A stretch of DNA of 49,937 nucleotides, taken from positions 1-49,937 of IMG/VR virus record IMGVR_UViG_3300032020_000007, one strand, 5' to 3'. Both the position numbers and the translations under genes were made by a program. Each line of letters begins with the position of its first letter. The stretch's first letter is position 1. This stretch comes from a virus. The notes under the pieces were generated by a model. It was not told where the DNA came from, ran no database searches, and saw only the letters and a program-made list of their open reading frames with translations. Positions 1,557 through 49,937 of this stretch are shown one piece after another.

Positions 1557-2367
1557 AAACTGGCCTTATACAAAGTATATTATCGCCCCTGTAATCACAT
1601 TCAAGTTTGGAACAGTTATTACAGGTTATTTTATACCCCGCTCTACATTGCGGGCTTGGGTTGTCACAGGGCATTAAGTCATCAATTCCACAGCCGCAAT
1701 CTTCTCCGGCCAAACCGTCAAAACCTTTGATTTTTAGACATTCTTTAACAATTTCTTTTATAGTCATTTGTTTTCCCCATTGTTCCGCCATTGCATTGGC
1801 AATACCCTGAAAAGTCTTGCTCCGCAATCTTGCACGTTCTTTCGGAGGTAATTTGAGCGCATCAGCATACCACTTTGGCATAGACCTGCCGCTTGAATAC
1901 TTTACCTGCTCGCCTTTTCCTACGATATTTGTGGGGGTTAAGTTAGGCAGTCCTTTAAGCCATAAACAAGTTTTTTTGCTAAATGGTTCACCAAATTGAT
2001 AGGGATGTATTATTTGGTCGGGTTTCCTCCACACAGTTGACATAATCCCAACTGGACTCTCAATAGCAATTCGGGAACATTTGGCATTAGCAAAAAGCAT
2101 AAAAAAATCAATACCTTGTTGCTGCCGCCCATCCTTACGTTTCCTCTCAAACCAAGCCGCACCACTTGCGGCTAAATGTGTGCAGGGTGGAAAAGCAATT
2201 ATCATATCCCAGTTATTATTAAGCAGCGGGGAAACATCTTGTTGTAAATGCCATTCAGGATGACCCCCACTACAAGTTTCAATATCACAAGAATATGCTT
2301 CGTGGCCTAATTTCCTAAATTCATTTGTTACTACCTGTGATTCTTCACACGCCACAAGTATTTTCAT
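1546..2367 (-). CDS. DNA cytosine methyltransferase-like protein with Cys-rich C-terminus
   Basis: The SAM-binding start (MKILVACEESQ) and the FPPCTHL motif with the catalytic Cys of cytosine-5 methyltransferases near residue 62 are present, followed by an IESP motif with the expected catalytic Glu. After about residue 200 the protein changes to a Cys-rich tail (CGCG, PC, CxxC-like spacing) that probably binds zinc and may once have been a separate small protein. I chose the ATG at 2367 because AGAGG lies five bases upstream; a longer frame to 2430 has no such support. It overlaps the next methyltransferase by 23 bases. Likely role: protection of phage DNA from host restriction. Confidence 0.85.
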   Translation of the reverse strand: MKILVACEESQVVTNEFRKLGHEAYSCDIETCSGGHPEWHLQQDVSPLLNNNWDMIIAFPPCTHLAASGAAWFERKRKDGRQQQGIDFFMLFANAKCSRIAIESPVGIMSTVWRKPDQIIHPYQFGEPFSKKTCLWLKGLPNLTPTNIVGKGEQVKYSSGRSMPKWYADALKLPPKERARLRSKTFQGIANAMAEQWGKQMTIKEIVKECLKIKGFDGLAGEDCGCGIDDLMPCDNPSPQCRAGYKITCNNCSKLECDYRGDNILCIRPVYDA

Positions 2368-4423
2368 ACAAACCTCTAAACTCTTCAAGACGTTTATTGG
2401 CAAGAGCCACAAACTTTTCACTTGCATCAATCCCTACCCAATTCCTACCAAATTTCTCTGCTACGAGAGCCGTAGTGCCACTGCCCATAAAGGAGTCAAG
2501 GACTATACCCTCCACAGGAGACCCCGCCAATATACAGGGCTCTATCAAGTCAGGTGGATAGGAATTACCTGTTATTATTATGTTCCCTTTTCTTCTTGCA
2601 ATAAATGTTCCTGAAGGAGTTTCTGGACACCATACTATTCCCTGATATGATATGGATTTAACATTTAATTTTTTGCTTGCTGTTTTTCTGGCACTCGTTG
2701 TTTTCCGGTTTTTTACATATAAATGAAAAATGTTACGGCCTTTTTGCAAGCTCTTCTTAACACTGCTTCCTGTTTTGAAAATGAGGGCTTGAAGAATGTC
2801 AACAGTCTCCTCATTTTTTTGCATAACTACATAAGTGCCGTTTGGGTGAATCGAGCCGTCCCCAGCAACGAACCCTTTGATAAACCTTTTAAGTGCTTTT
2901 TTTGTCCATCCAAGCATTTGCCAGGAAGGTCTCTTGTTCGGTAAAAGATTAAAAATTCTTTTTGCGTTTATCCAGCTAATTGTAAAGCAAGCCATCTCAT
3001 AAATGCCAGTTTCACGCTGCCGTCGCACAATCCGTTTGGTATAATCAAGTTTTTCTTTACGAAAAAGGCGCTCAATTCTTTGAACTTTTTTTCTATTTCT
3101 CGTTAAAGATTGATAGACTTTAATGCTATATTTAGCATAATATCCTTCCGCAGCTATCCAACCGAGAATTTCACACATATCCAAAGATGGCTCATAAGAG
3201 AACCCATAGCTCCCCTTTTCCCATTCTGCACAAACAGGAAATCTATCCGCCGAATTTATGTTTTGTATTTCTTTGAAATAAAAATCCGACCACTCCTGTC
3301 GTTTTGCTTGCCATTTTCTACACACGGCTTTATGTTCCTGGGTATAAATAAAATTTGAGTTGGGATTTAATGTTTCTATGAGACAACCTTTATACTTGTA
3401 TGTATGGATATGGTTCAGTCTCTCAAATTGTAGTTTTTTGGAGGACAAGCTGAAAGTGCCAATACTCTCACCGGTAACAAGTTCGTTGTATCTTTTCCAA
3501 CCACTTAAAGTTAAACATTCTGTGTCAGCACTCACGCAGGAGAAGTGGCCTTTTGCACCAGATTTAACTGTAACAACCCAGACATCTCTCTTATTGCGTT
3601 TCAGATAGACTTTGACTTCAGGAATTTTGGAAGTATTGTATATGCCTGATGGACCTCCGGGCAGTATGCCAGAATCAAGTATAGCTTTGCGTCCTCTGAA
3701 TCTACGACCTGTTAGAGACTCTTGGTCAACACACGGCTCTTTTATAGCCTCGTTGTCGTAGTAATACTTCTTGTTCTTGGCCAGCATAAAAATATATTCG
3801 TGAGCGGTCGTGCATCTGTCTCTGACAGAGGAAGGCATCGGATTGGGTTTCAACCATATAATATCCTGGCGAAGGTACCATCCATCTGCACGGAGAGCAA
3901 AGGCAACCATCCAGGGGATTCCTATAAGGTCTTTTTGTTTTAAGTTTCCTTGTAATTTTCCGGCATAACTATCCCCCAGATTAAGCCAAAGTGTGCCCTG
4001 TGGTTTGAGAACTCGCCTAACCTCACGGAATATCCCTACAAGGTGCTGGACGTATAATTCAGGGCTTGGTTCAAGACCAAGTTGACCGAGCCAAACACCA
4101 CATTTTTGGCAGAATTGACCAGAATGAGGTTTTACTCTTGCTAACTGATAAATAATCTCATCTGGCCGTCCTTTTTGGCTAAAGCCGGTAGGAACTTTAT
4201 TGCCTGCCTGTTGACCACAAAACGGCTGTTTTTCCCCCCATTCGTGCCTGCAATCTGCCTGGCCTTCCCATCCCCAGACTATTGGCTCACAGGGGTTAGA
4301 CCTCAAACCATAATAGGGTGGGGAGCAAACACACATATCAACACTTTCAGCAGGCCAGTTTTTTAAGACTTCTCTGGCATCACCTTGCACAATTTGATTT
4401 ATTGGTAATTCAACCATATACAT
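2345..4423 (-). CDS. Amino DNA methyltransferase (N4-C/N6-A type) interrupted by an intein
   Basis: The host protein has the class beta order: catalytic SPPYY at residues 34-38 near the N-terminus and the SAM-binding FMGSGTT motif near residue 645 at the C-terminus. Between them a 325-residue intein (residues 296-620) sits after HFS and before SYPPDL, a conserved part of this family. Removing it gives a normal-sized enzyme of about 367 residues. A CxxC/HxxxxC cluster around residues 60-110 may bind zinc. I chose the ATG at 4423 because GGAG is nine bases upstream; a GTG at 4444 would add seven residues. Predicted role: sequence-specific DNA methylation, against host restriction. Confidence 0.9.
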   Translation of the reverse strand: MYMVELPINQIVQGDAREVLKNWPAESVDMCVCSPPYYGLRSNPCEPIVWGWEGQADCRHEWGEKQPFCGQQAGNKVPTGFSQKGRPDEIIYQLARVKPHSGQFCQKCGVWLGQLGLEPSPELYVQHLVGIFREVRRVLKPQGTLWLNLGDSYAGKLQGNLKQKDLIGIPWMVAFALRADGWYLRQDIIWLKPNPMPSSVRDRCTTAHEYIFMLAKNKKYYYDNEAIKEPCVDQESLTGRRFRGRKAILDSGILPGGPSGIYNTSKIPEVKVYLKRNKRDVWVVTVKSGAKGHFSCVSADTECLTLSGWKRYNELVTGESIGTFSLSSKKLQFERLNHIHTYKYKGCLIETLNPNSNFIYTQEHKAVCRKWQAKRQEWSDFYFKEIQNINSADRFPVCAEWEKGSYGFSYEPSLDMCEILGWIAAEGYYAKYSIKVYQSLTRNRKKVQRIERLFRKEKLDYTKRIVRRQRETGIYEMACFTISWINAKRIFNLLPNKRPSWQMLGWTKKALKRFIKGFVAGDGSIHPNGTYVVMQKNEETVDILQALIFKTGSSVKKSLQKGRNIFHLYVKNRKTTSARKTASKKLNVKSISYQGIVWCPETPSGTFIARRKGNIIITGNSYPPDLIEPCILAGSPVEGIVLDSFMGSGTTALVAEKFGRNWVGIDASEKFVALANKRLEEFRGLYENTCGV
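2564..3538 (-). mobile_element. Intein with LAGLIDADG homing endonuclease
   Basis: All splicing blocks are readable. Block A starts CVSADTECLTL with the nucleophile Cys. Block B contains TQEH (the TxxH motif). The end is IIITGN, followed by Ser as the +1 extein nucleophile. The penultimate residue is Gly, where His is most common. Between the splicing parts are two LAGLIDADG motifs, LGWIAAEG (about residues 420-427 of the precursor) and GFVAGDG (about 517-523), so this is a full-length inteinassociated homing endonuclease. There is no frameshift. It should excise after translation and may home into intein-less alleles. Confidence 0.93.
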
Positions 4424-4535
4424 AAATGTTATCTCCAGGCCCACTTGAATAAGTTAGTTTGCCAAGTATGTCCTGCCAACCTTTATTTTTAACTCTTTTT
4501 TGCCTTGTCTTTTTTCTCTTTTTTACCTTTTTCAT
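4410..4535 (-). CDS. Small basic protein (41 aa)
   Basis: The ATG at 4535 overlaps the stop of the upstream 61-residue gene in an ATGA pair, and the frame ends inside the start of the methyltransferase gene. The first 18 residues are almost all Lys/Arg; the rest (WQDILGKLTYSSGPG) looks like ordinary protein. The coupled position on both sides supports a real gene. Function is unknown; the basic N-terminus could bind nucleic acid. Confidence 0.5.
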   Translation of the reverse strand: MKKVKKRKKTRQKRVKNKGWQDILGKLTYSSGPGDNIYVYG

Positions 4536-7675: not shown

Positions 7676-7806
7676 TTTATCAGTCTCCTCTTTTTACAGT
7701 ACCACCATCCCGCCAGCACCAAACCCGTTAATACTAAATCCTCAAGCGGAAGTCCCCAAAAATAATCACTTAATAGATAATACGCTGTCTGAATGGGGTT
7801 GTTCAT
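7672..7806 (-). CDS. Small membrane protein (44 aa)
   Basis: One transmembrane segment (LPLEDLVLTGLVLAGWWY) is followed by a Lys/Arg-rich end. It overlaps both neighbours by ATGA (7803-7806 and 7672-7675). Function is unknown. Confidence 0.55.
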   Translation of the reverse strand: MNNPIQTAYYLLSDYFWGLPLEDLVLTGLVLAGWWYCKKRRLIK

Positions 7807-16084: not shown

Positions 16085-16259
16085 TACTTTTTTCACTTTT
16101 TTCCCATAAAACACAACCAAAATCTTCTCTTGTTATAAAATTATCATCAAAGCAATAACCAACATAATCACCAAAATTATTATCTTCCTTTATTTCCTGG
16201 CAATATCCGTAATTTCCCCTATATCTATCCCACCAAAAACAGTCTTTACAAATTTTCAT
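16056..16259 (-). CDS. Small Cys/Trp-rich protein, putative zinc finger (67 aa)
   Basis: CKDCFWWDRYRGNYGYC at the start and C-x(n)-C later give a four-Cys site with the Trp-rich pattern common in small phage zinc proteins. It overlaps the polymerase start and is translationally coupled to it. Function is unknown. Confidence 0.75.
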   Translation of the reverse strand: MKICKDCFWWDRYRGNYGYCQEIKEDNNFGDYVGYCFDDNFITREDFGCVLWEKSEKSNENRNKDVC

Positions 16260-16407
16260 CTTCTACCTCATCGCCAAAATCATCATCTTCATACTCTTCG
16301 TCATATACAACTAAATCTTCCCTTTCACCAATAGGCAGATTGTCCCAACAAACTACACAGACATCGCAATCTAAAGGGATTATTACATTACAATAGGGGC
16401 ATTTCAT
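16246..16407 (-). CDS. Small zinc-finger protein with acidic tail (53 aa)
   Basis: CPYC at the N-terminus and CVVC about 15 residues later form a zinc ribbon; WDNLPIG follows and is reminiscent of the WDNIPV peptide found at 12187-12221 and 48271-48287. The last 25 residues are strongly acidic. It is the first gene of the leftward arm from the divergent control region and overlaps the next gene by 14 bases. Confidence 0.6.
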   Translation of the reverse strand: MKCPYCNVIIPLDCDVCVVCWDNLPIGEREDLVVYDEEYEDDDFGDEVEDENL

Positions 16408-16461
16408 TGTTTCAATCCAATTTACTGCTATAAAACTACTACACTAAAATAAGGTCTCTAT

Positions 16462-16478
16462 CCATTACTAAATACGAC
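16462..16478 (-). promoter_or_regulatory. Control motif, copy 1 (facing left)
   Basis: Read on the minus strand it is GTCGTATTTAGTAATGG followed by ATAGAGA, pointing at the polymerase operon. It shares CGTATTTAGTAATGG with copy 3. Confidence 0.65.
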
Positions 16479-16582
16479 AGATATTCAGGTAAGTTCACAT
16501 AATTATCAGAAAATATCAGGAAAATAAAAAATAAATTTTTAACACATTTTTGTTGATTTTTGCAAACAAAATACAAACTTTT

Positions 16583-16609
16583 GTCGTATTAGTAATGGCA
16601 GGATAGTAT
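16583..16609 (+). promoter_or_regulatory. Control motif, copy 2 (facing right)
   Basis: GTCGTATTAGTAATGG followed after three bases by GGATAGTAT. It lacks one T of the run in copies 1 and 3. Confidence 0.65.
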
Positions 16610-16657
16610 ATTGTTAATAATTCTTAAAGATTATTGTGAACAAAACAGGATTTACAG

Positions 16658-16685
16658 CGTATTTAGTAATGGGGGAAGATAGTAT
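16658..16685 (+). promoter_or_regulatory. Control motif, copy 3 (facing right)
   Basis: CGTATTTAGTAATGG is followed by a short G/A-rich spacer and GATAGTAT, as in copy 2. It ends about 25 bases before the ATG of the first rightward gene, a position expected for a promoter or operator. Confidence 0.65.
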
Positions 16686-16709
16686 TTTAGTTTATTACAA
16701 GGAGACAAA

Positions 16710-16895
16710 ATGCAAGAATCAGAAGAACATATTCAAAAATTGTCAACATTATCACCAGAGAGATTAAAACGTGATTTTCAACGTTCCACTCAACGATGTC
16801 TCTGCAAGTTGTGCGGCAGACACATCTACGAGGGTGATGGTGCCGAGGCGTGGGCGAAAGAGATTTGCACCGACTGTGAGCCGATAATAAGCTGA
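16710..16895 (+). CDS. Zinc-finger protein, duplicate of 48256-48462
   Basis: This 61-residue protein begins MQESEEHIQKLST and has RSTQRCLCKLCGRHIY followed by EICTDC, a four-Cys finger. The gene at 48256-48462 gives almost the same protein (RSTQRCLCKLCGRHIYAGD, then EICNEC), so one is a recent copy of the other. It is the first gene right of the control region and AAGGAG precedes its ATG. A regulatory or partner-binding role is possible. Confidence 0.8.
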   Translation: MQESEEHIQKLSTLSPERLKRDFQRSTQRCLCKLCGRHIYEGDGAEAWAKEICTDCEPIIS

Positions 16896-18711: not shown

Positions 18712-19619
18712 ATTTTGAGACTCTTACAGGAAAAGAGTTTTTTGCTTTGATTCCGACAGGGTTAGAAGACAATATACGATTCCGTATAGATTTTCATAAA
18801 CTGGCGAGTCAAAGTAAAGACCTGCAACAATGGTTTCTGGAAACGTGTAGAGATTATCTGCCAGTGATGTTCAATGCTCTCTTTTGGACGCTGAATCCCC
18901 GAAAACCGCCGAGTGAGAGTTTGAAGCCGTTTATTTTGCGGCCAAAACAGATTTTTGCTGTTGAGAAGATAGACCAATGTATTAAAATCGGTAAGGATGT
19001 TGGGATAGATAAAGCAAGAGAGGAGGGTGCAACAGAGATTGTTTCCAAGATTTATGCCGCACATTCGATTTTATACAAAAAGAGAAATTTTATTGTTGGC
19101 TCACGAACAAAAAAATTAGTAGATACAATAGGAGACGATTATACAATTTTTGCCAAGATAGATAATGCTTTTGAGTATTTGCCGTCTTGGATGGGATTAA
19201 ATGTCAACAACGGGTCTATTTATCGTAAAGATATGCTTCTTCGAGTTGTTCCCAACAGTTCTACAATAAATGGTGAAACTACAAATGAGAGTTTTAGCGC
19301 TGGAAGTCGTGGGACTTCAATGCTTCTTGATGAATTTGGGCGAGTGGATAAGTATATTGCTGATTCGATAGAAGGGTCTATTCACGATGTTACGGATTGT
19401 GTGATTTACAACTCGACTCACTGGCTGGGGTTGAACCATACTTTTAATCAAGTTTTACATCGGCCAGGATTGGAAATAATAACCTTTGATTGGTGGGAAA
19501 ATCCTGATGGGAAGAATCAAGGGCTTTATACGAGTAATTCGCCTGGTGAAGTAGAGTTGATTGATATTGAGTATTATCAGAAGAATTACCCAGAATTATT
19601 AAAATATGCGGAGTCTTGA
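18708..19619 (+). CDS. terL: Terminase large subunit, ATPase part (ends at in-frame UGA)
   Basis: The ATPase motifs are readable: an adenine-binding Q motif (RPKQ, residue 81), a deviant Walker A in AREEGATE (103-110), Walker B MLLDEFGR (205-212) and a coupling motif YNSTHW. At residue 304 the frame meets UGA and continues at once, in the same frame, as the nuclease part (19620-20705). Other large terminases carry both parts on one chain. The UGA may be a nonsense mutation, a readthrough site or the boundary of a real split gene. Confidence 0.9.
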   Translation: MNFETLTGKEFFALIPTGLEDNIRFRIDFHKLASQSKDLQQWFLETCRDYLPVMFNALFWTLNPRKPPSESLKPFILRPKQIFAVEKIDQCIKIGKDVGIDKAREEGATEIVSKIYAAHSILYKKRNFIVGSRTKKLVDTIGDDYTIFAKIDNAFEYLPSWMGLNVNNGSIYRKDMLLRVVPNSSTINGETTNESFSAGSRGTSMLLDEFGRVDKYIADSIEGSIHDVTDCVIYNSTHWLGLNHTFNQVLHRPGLEIITFDWWENPDGKNQGLYTSNSPGEVELIDIEYYQKNYPELLKYAES

Positions 19620-48666: not shown

Positions 48667-49243
48667 TGTTTTGCTCCTTTCCATTCTTACCATTCAACTT
48701 TTTTTGAACCATAGATACAATACGAACAGTAGCCGGACTTTGTTCTCCATTATGCGCTTCTTTGAATAATATATCCGGTGTCATAACATCCCCAGCAGTG
48801 GAGGACACAGGGGCGGATACCATCAACTTAAACCTCTCCCCACCTGCTATTATCTCTTTCAATGCTCTACGATTGACCCAGATAGCCCACCCAGCAACAC
48901 CAACAGCCCCTACAAGCGTTATTACAGCCATCCAAGCAGCAAATCTTGCACACATAAAGACTGTCGATAAGACTACCAGAAGGGCAGCGATGGCCTTCAC
49001 ACCCCATAGGTGGCCTTGTAAGAAGGCAAAGACACTTAAACCTATGCCTATGACGGATAGTGTAACTAACCAGTCCTGCTTATACATTACTTTTGTACCA
49101 GGGTTTGAGGAGGCATCCTCTAATTGCTGTGTAAGTTCAACTATCTTTGCCTTATACGCCTGGCAACATCCACCAATCAAAAGTAATATAAGCAATACAA
49201 TTGCAACAATCGTGGAAACAGTAATGATTTTATCCCAATTCAT
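48659..49243 (-). CDS. Multi-span membrane protein with lipobox-like start (194 aa)
   Basis: The N-terminal segment ends LLLIGGCC, similar to a lipoprotein signal with Cys26 as the modified residue. Three further hydrophobic segments lie between about residues 57 and 122, before a charged C-terminus. It could be a cell-envelope protein, perhaps for lysis or exclusion. Two bases separate it from the NinG-like gene. Confidence 0.65.
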   Translation of the reverse strand: MNWDKIITVSTIVAIVLLILLLIGGCCQAYKAKIVELTQQLEDASSNPGTKVMYKQDWLVTLSVIGIGLSVFAFLQGHLWGVKAIAALLVVLSTVFMCARFAAWMAVITLVGAVGVAGWAIWVNRRALKEIIAGGERFKLMVSAPVSSTAGDVMTPDILFKEAHNGEQSPATVRIVSMVQKKLNGKNGKEQNNG

Positions 49244-49244
49244 A

Positions 49245-49643
49245 TTATTCTCCTTTCAGCTTATCTAACTTGTTTTGATACACTTTAATCATATCTTCAA
49301 GGTCTGCACTACGCAACTTGATTATTTGTTTACTTTCTTTTACCAGCTTTTCAATAATACCCTTGCCATATTTTTGTTGAAGGTATAATGTGTATTCCGG
49401 CATATTTCCAGCTTTGAAAACATTACACCCAACGCACTGGGGAGCAGTGTTTTTGGGATTCCAACGAACAGCAAGGCGATTCCGAGAAATGTAGTGCCCG
49501 CATTGTGAATCTTGCCATCGCATACGTTTTCCACAGGTAACACATTTAACAAACCCATCCTCTTCAATAGAACTGCGCCGCCTATATTCGGAGAACACGG
49601 CGTCTAATCTTTTTTTGAGCTGGGAGTAAGTCTTATGTTTCAT
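49245..49643 (-). CDS. NinG-like HNH/recombination protein (132 aa)
   Basis: CVTCGKRMRW, then CGHYISRNRLAVRW and CVGCNVFKAGN form the zinc-bound HNH-like core; the spacing and the helical ends (LKKRLDAVFSEYRRR, YLQQKYGKG) are those of the lambda NinG (Rap) family, which cuts recombination junctions. This is the complete copy; the start of the same gene appears again at 1-150. Confidence 0.85.
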   Translation of the reverse strand: MKHKTYSQLKKRLDAVFSEYRRRSSIEEDGFVKCVTCGKRMRWQDSQCGHYISRNRLAVRWNPKNTAPQCVGCNVFKAGNMPEYTLYLQQKYGKGIIEKLVKESKQIIKLRSADLEDMIKVYQNKLDKLKGE

Positions 49644-49758
49644 ATCTATAATTCCACTGGCGGACAGGCAGAATTGGCATTTTCACGTTCATTACATACG
49701 GCGTAATGAATATCTAAACGTATCCTTCACGCCGCCGCCAGCTATAAACCAAATCTTT

Positions 49759-49899
49759 TTAACAGATACATATTAACAGATACATAATCAATGCAATCCC
49801 GCATACAGGCAAGATCACATACAACAAAAACTTCAGTAAGTAGTGCCCCAAAAGATACAAAATACAGAGCCATTTCGGGAAGGAGGGTATGCCGGTCAT
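49759..49899 (-). CDS. Small membrane protein, right copy with altered C-terminus (46 aa)
   Basis: The first 42 residues equal those of 249-392. The 14-bp duplication shifts the frame so that ICIC and a stop replace KRFGL. One coding base difference elsewhere is synonymous (TTA/TTG). The protein remains a membrane peptide of similar length, so the change may be tolerated. Confidence 0.55.
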   Translation of the reverse strand: MTGIPSFPKWLCILYLLGHYLLKFLLYVILPVCGIALIMYLLICIC

Positions 49900-49903
49900 A
49901 CTA

Positions 49904-49937
49904 TCATTCTCCAAAAATTATTTTAGTTTCGCCACCA
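49904..49937 (-). CDS. Coiled-coil hypothetical protein, 3' end only (cut by contig end)
   Basis: The last codons of the gene seen complete at 397-732 appear again at the right edge. This is the same locus, seen through the repeat. Confidence 0.8.
   Translation of the reverse strand, partial: GGETKIIFGE

Follow-up and report, generated by a model that had tools for sequence, protein, structure and literature searches.

Phages are generally thought to start transcription with a housekeeping sigma factor or with a polymerase of their own. In divergent regions of the lambda PL/PR type, a single intergenic region fires both arms outward. Promoters of the ECF sigma factors carry a hallmark AAC at -35 and CGT at -10 (PMC8103513). 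The SigW consensus is TGAAAC-N16,17-CGTA(T) (PMC2375139). The AAC of SigE and SigW promoters occupies -33 to -31, with SigE having GGAAC and its C at -31 (PMC6713349), and the ECF -10 element CGTC spans positions -13 to -10 (PMC3397946).

The DNA analysed here, hereafter the window, comprises a complete IMG/VR virus record (49,937 bases) and is a tailed-phage genome. Its divergent control region contains three copies of a two-part unit. PL faces left and PR1 and PR2 face right in tandem, each toward its own arm, an orientation already described in a sequence-only reading of this DNA. The units resemble B. subtilis SigW promoters (TGAAAC-N16,17-CGTAT) and E. coli SigE promoters (GGAACTT) in their AAC, their CGT(AT) and a spacer of 16-17 nt, and their predicted start, like that of ECF promoters, is a purine some 13 nt beyond the -10 C. 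AAC is present in all three -35 elements, as GTGAAC in PL and PR2 and GCAAAC in PR1; these sequences, and GCGAACAAA in relatives, differ from the -35 of SigW and SigE promoters. Unlike the latter, the units would be the main promoters of a phage family. The arrangement is like lambda in that both arms would be fired outward from a single intergenic region. It is unlike lambda in that no lambda-type repressor/operator set was recognised and the arms share one non-sigma-70 unit, present twice in tandem on the right.

Results

The first 430 and last 444 bases of the window are 96% identical, and the map therefore closes, at about 49.5 kb. The 14-bp indel between these segments (1-430 and 49494-49937) is a tandem copy of AACAGATACATATT, which suggests strain variation in a closed map. 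Left-arm genes start at 16.4 kb and run leftward across the ends as far as about 43 kb; those of the right arm extend rightward between 16.7 and 42.9 kb. The sign of the GC skew switches at 16.5 kb and 43 kb, matching both points at which gene direction switches. Gene directions and skew together identify the unstranded, non-coding segment 16408-16709 (302 bp, GC 26%), where the skew changes sign, as the only divergent control region of the genome. Proteins identified in the left arm include a family A DNA polymerase, a primase, methyltransferases and exonucleases. An N6/N4 methyltransferase ORF at 2345-4444 is split by an intein-like LAGLIDADG segment. The right arm encodes the terminase, a portal-position protein that matches none of 50,697 phage records, and presumed structural genes. 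The large terminase gene is split by an in-frame TGA (19617-19619) into ORFs of 303 and 361 aa; one relative (L005) has a single 674-aa ORF and another (L007) an HNH gene at the break. The left arm opens with a 53-aa Cys-rich, zinc-ribbon-like protein (16246-16407, minus strand; Pfam DZR_2 E 0.004, below cut-off) and the right arm with a 61-aa Cys-rich protein (16710-16895, plus strand; AGGAGA before the ATG). These two had been put forward as candidate binders of the motif, and we found nothing that links either to it.

Each unit consists of (G/A)AAC and, 16, 17 and 16 nt further on in PL, PR1 and PR2, CGTAT, so the CGT and the 16-17 nt spacer of ECF promoters are present in all three. PL (16472-16496, minus strand) has GAAC at 16493-16496, N16 and CGTAT at 16472-16476. 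PR1 (16564-16589, plus strand) has AAAC at 16564-16567, N17 and CGTAT at 16585-16589, and PR2 (16638-16662, plus strand) has GAAC at 16638-16641, N16 and CGTAT at 16658-16662. With +1 set by ECF numbering (-13 CGTA -10), all three predicted starts fall on a G, at 16463 in PL, about 16598 in PR1 and 16671 in PR2, giving predicted leaders of 56 nt from PL to left gene 1 and 39 nt from PR2 to right gene 1. The 15-mer CGTATTTAGTAATGG, which on this numbering runs from about -13 to +2 and would comprise the -10 element, discriminator and start, is exact in PL (16462-16476, minus strand) and PR2 (16658-16672, plus strand). Those are its only two copies, and the genome has no other match at up to two mismatches. 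What had been read as three copies of one motif is thus two exact copies and a 14-base variant in PR1, CGTATTAGTAATGG (16585-16598, plus strand; CGTA-TTAGTAATGG), which is one T short; TTAGTAATGG is common to all three. The GATAG(T/A) formerly included in the motif starts 0, 4 or 6 nt after AATGG, a spacing that is not fixed. We therefore replace the 25-28-base form with AAC, 16-17 nt and CGTAT plus the discriminator/start region.

The upstream block, TTxTTG(T/C)(G/A)AAC, was overlooked in the sequence-only reading. Anchored on TTAGTAATGG, it reads TTATGTGAAC, TTTTGCAAAC or TATTGTGAAC at a constant distance, and 14 columns of the 40-bp upstream flank are identical in all three copies, which 0 of 5000 shuffles reach. 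A 10-mer occurs three times in 0.6% of shuffles of the 302-bp region, the examples printed all being low-complexity A/T words. A position weight matrix (PWM) of the whole unit scores the three copies at 75.7, 71.3 and 63.8 and the next site in the genome at 6.0, so that a genome-wide search finds them unique. Two further, weak GAAC-N16/17-CGTAT sites face downstream genes at 7780-7804 and 48720-48745 (both minus strand), with scores within background. Between PL and PR2 the -35 and the 15-mer are identical and the spacer has diverged (6/16 identical), whereas the ten bases 3' of CGTAT do not vary among the three copies. This suggests an additional constraint after CGTAT, either a discriminator and start tuned to the polymerase or an overlapping operator.

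The sequence-only reading held that the motif does not look like a sigma-70 promoter, and indeed no same-strand TTGACA-N16-18-TATAAT match at 9/12 overlaps a unit. Sigma-70 matches in the control region are weak, with a 9/12 count below that of shuffles and none at 10/12. A shared reading frame was also rejected: PL and PR2 both encode YLVMxxDxILV, but the frame is interrupted by a stop in PR1, and signals for a translation start were not seen.

A terminase search of IMG/VR yielded more than 90 relatives at about 34-58% identity; a first scan of genome contigs yielded none. The 15-mer, allowing up to two edits, is absent upstream of the terminase in 49 of 49 relatives checked. Its 55 exact matches in IMG/VR (one per locus) are attributable to chance, as they have no DNA similarity to the window and no upstream AAC at the right distance. 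The two-part unit, however, is kept. Among 81 non-redundant family loci, the control regions (119 kb in total) contain 23 sites for GAAC.{16,17}CGTA[TA], spread over 21 loci, and the other 606 kb contain 17 (binomial p 4e-9). When the spacing is varied from 4 to 35 nt, N16 accounts for 15 sites, N17 for 8 and any other value for at most 3, and scrambled or mis-spaced control patterns give near-zero counts. Since the search fixed the core letters, independent evidence comes from the flanking positions and the spacing alone: A directly follows CGTAT in 22 of the 23 sites, a purine stands at the predicted +1 in 20 of 23, and further positions left free show a T-rich upstream flank and GAACA(AA). 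Most sites lie 6-100 nt 5' of genes, the majority being within 6-80 nt of the first leftward gene, and some fall outside the control region. One locus (L090) probably owes its match to chance in coding sequence; the remaining 20 of the 21 loci were used to build a matrix. Scanned over both strands of the window, this matrix from relatives alone ranks the three copies first, second and third (28.1, 24.4 and 19.7), followed by a site in the primase Toprim coding sequence at 16.7; the best score in the reversed window is 15.2.

Two relatives repeat the pattern of the window. L092 has two distant intergenic sites with identical CGTATAGATAGTAGA (15/15) and a spacer matching at 4/16. L129 has a window-like outward pair, GAACAAA..GAGATTCGTATA, with GAACAAA-N14-CGTATA on both sides. 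An inverted-repeat scan of control regions found outward matched pairs above shuffles in the window, L101, L113, L119, L120, L122 and L129, and weaker ones in L124 and L114. Except in L129, the pairs of these relatives are outward matched promoter pairs of other sequence classes, such as ATGGTATAAT (with TTGACT-N17 in L119) or boxes ending in TATAGAGGG or similar. Many relatives are without the unit and have sigma-70-like promoters instead (L005, L066-L072, L119 and L122, for example). In the control regions of L066-L072 the dyad TTGTTAAGTGATTATCTAACAA occurs several times, and a TTGCAT-N16-TATACT promoter faces left. In those of L007 (2430-2790) and L005 (1400-1800) a segment is RNA-like and strongly structured (fold z -8.0 and -3.9, respectively) and belongs to no Rfam family. 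One 45-kb contig of the family (L160) has been assigned to a Candidatus Lokiarchaeota MAG; the binning is probably wrong, but the contig still gives a lead to the host. Archaeal TATA/BRE promoters, considered because of this contig, were rejected: relatives carry clear TTGACT-N17-TATAAT and no BRE was seen.

We then considered which factor reads the unit. Sigma70_r2 was found neither in the window nor in 21 relatives, with control genomes positive, and sigma region 4 was not found in the window. None of the large ORFs scanned with PHROGs matched an RNA polymerase; the single-subunit polymerase profile PF00940 had no match in the window and none in its control genomes either. In many relatives, L113, L114, L005 and L007 among them, the first left gene encodes a possible regulator: a protein of about 115 aa that has only sigma region 4, as a region 4-like HTH, followed by a C-terminal tail that is also conserved. 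It is encoded adjacent to the control region in 16 of 19 relatives with the unit versus 11 of 35 without it (Fisher p 4e-4, uncorrected for relatedness). Because the window has no such protein, it cannot be the general reader. Across 14 relatives, no window protein tracks the motif by being present where sites are and absent where they are not. With neither a sigma region 2 nor a motif-tracking window protein, a host ECF-type sigma factor is by exclusion the likeliest reader.

Discussion

The unit recurs at the divergent control regions of relatives with its geometry kept, and is very probably a conserved promoter-like element. With less assurance, we regard as probable the full reading in which PL, PR1 and PR2 are ECF-type promoters that drive both arms, with a host sigma as reader. 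We infer each step of it from sequence: that the units act as promoters, that an ECF-type sigma reads them and that this sigma is the host's. Host RNA polymerase with such a sigma would start both arms from 16408-16709 at three outward promoters of the same class, PL on one side and the tandem PR1 and PR2 on the other. Each would have a -35 (G/A)AAC, 16-17 nt, a -10 CGTAT and a start about 13 nt past the C of CGTAT; the ten identical bases after CGTAT would stem from a preference in the discriminator and start, or from an operator that overlaps them. Counting against this reading, the -10 is CGTATT in the window versus CGTATA in the family, the identity runs on beyond the promoter itself, many relatives have sigma-70-like promoters in place of the unit, and transcription of early phage genes usually relies on the housekeeping sigma. 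The phage-specific promoter or operator for both arms that was first proposed thus stands as a promoter or operator, well supported in silico; neither a phage RNA polymerase nor a phage-specific factor is needed, and the scans described above found none.

Alternatively, the 15-mer or whole unit could be the box of a phage activator or specificity factor at -35, as with T4 MotA boxes, with a host sigma-70 -10 (TATTTT/TATATT) 8-10 nt downstream and starts about 20-25 nt further downstream. We consider this unlikely. T4 middle promoters (MotA box plus sigma-70 -10) are similar in having a long phage-specific block near -35 and an A/T-rich, -10-like block at a fixed distance, and in the window a third block, TATTTTAGT, lies exactly 10 nt after the cores of PL (16443-16451, minus strand) and PR2 (16683-16691, plus strand). 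This block might represent leader sequence or a second -10. However, it is weakly conserved, with less support than the upstream flank (shuffle p 0.01-0.05), and differs in PR1, which has TATTGT at 10 nt or TATATT at 8 nt. L113, L114, L120 and L101 have outward pairs of long boxes just 5' of TATA-like -10s, and most relatives with sites encode the adjacent sigma-region-4-like protein, both points in favour of this alternative, but the window lacks that protein and none of its own proteins tracks the motif. Unlike T4, no MotA-like protein was seen, and what is conserved across the family is not a box plus TATAAT or the downstream block but the core, GAAC...CGTAT.

The units could instead be operators, sites for a phage repressor or regulator that shuts both arms and overlaps promoters not otherwise recognised. 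Divergent control regions of phages often have multi-copy operators, and ten bases past CGTAT are identical in the three copies when the spacer is not. Yet two half-motifs separated by 16 or 17 nt and lacking symmetry are unlike the site of a protein dimer, and a promoter would account for the A/T-rich flank and the purine at +1. We find this reading improbable on its own, although an operator role may exist in addition to a promoter role. It is very improbable that the copies are replication-origin iterons: the region is AT-rich with repeated sites, and the skew switches at 16.5 kb and 43 kb, but skew also tracks gene direction, the copies are orientation-matched to operons, and the sites of relatives mostly have promoter geometry shortly 5' of genes, some of them away from the control region. 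Less credible still is an RNA element in both operon leaders, such as a nut-like antitermination site, since the leaders have no significant structure or Rfam match above threshold and such an element leaves the upstream AAC block and the 16/17 spacing unexplained, even though every copy has the orientation of the transcript leaving on its arm.

Returning to ECF-type promoters, the class itself is already known, and we found no description of its use as main phage promoters in the literature searched. A more tentative proposal is that a broad lineage of uncultivated tailed phages may run its genome from promoters of a host ECF (envelope-stress) sigma, with damage or stress at infection itself switching on transcription and a genome-specific 10-base discriminator tuning the promoters to the host sigma. 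If true, a phage family with stress-sigma-like central promoters would represent a new transcription strategy and would predict the hosts and physiological states that permit infection, and the promoter consensus could guide the search for the host's sigma factor.
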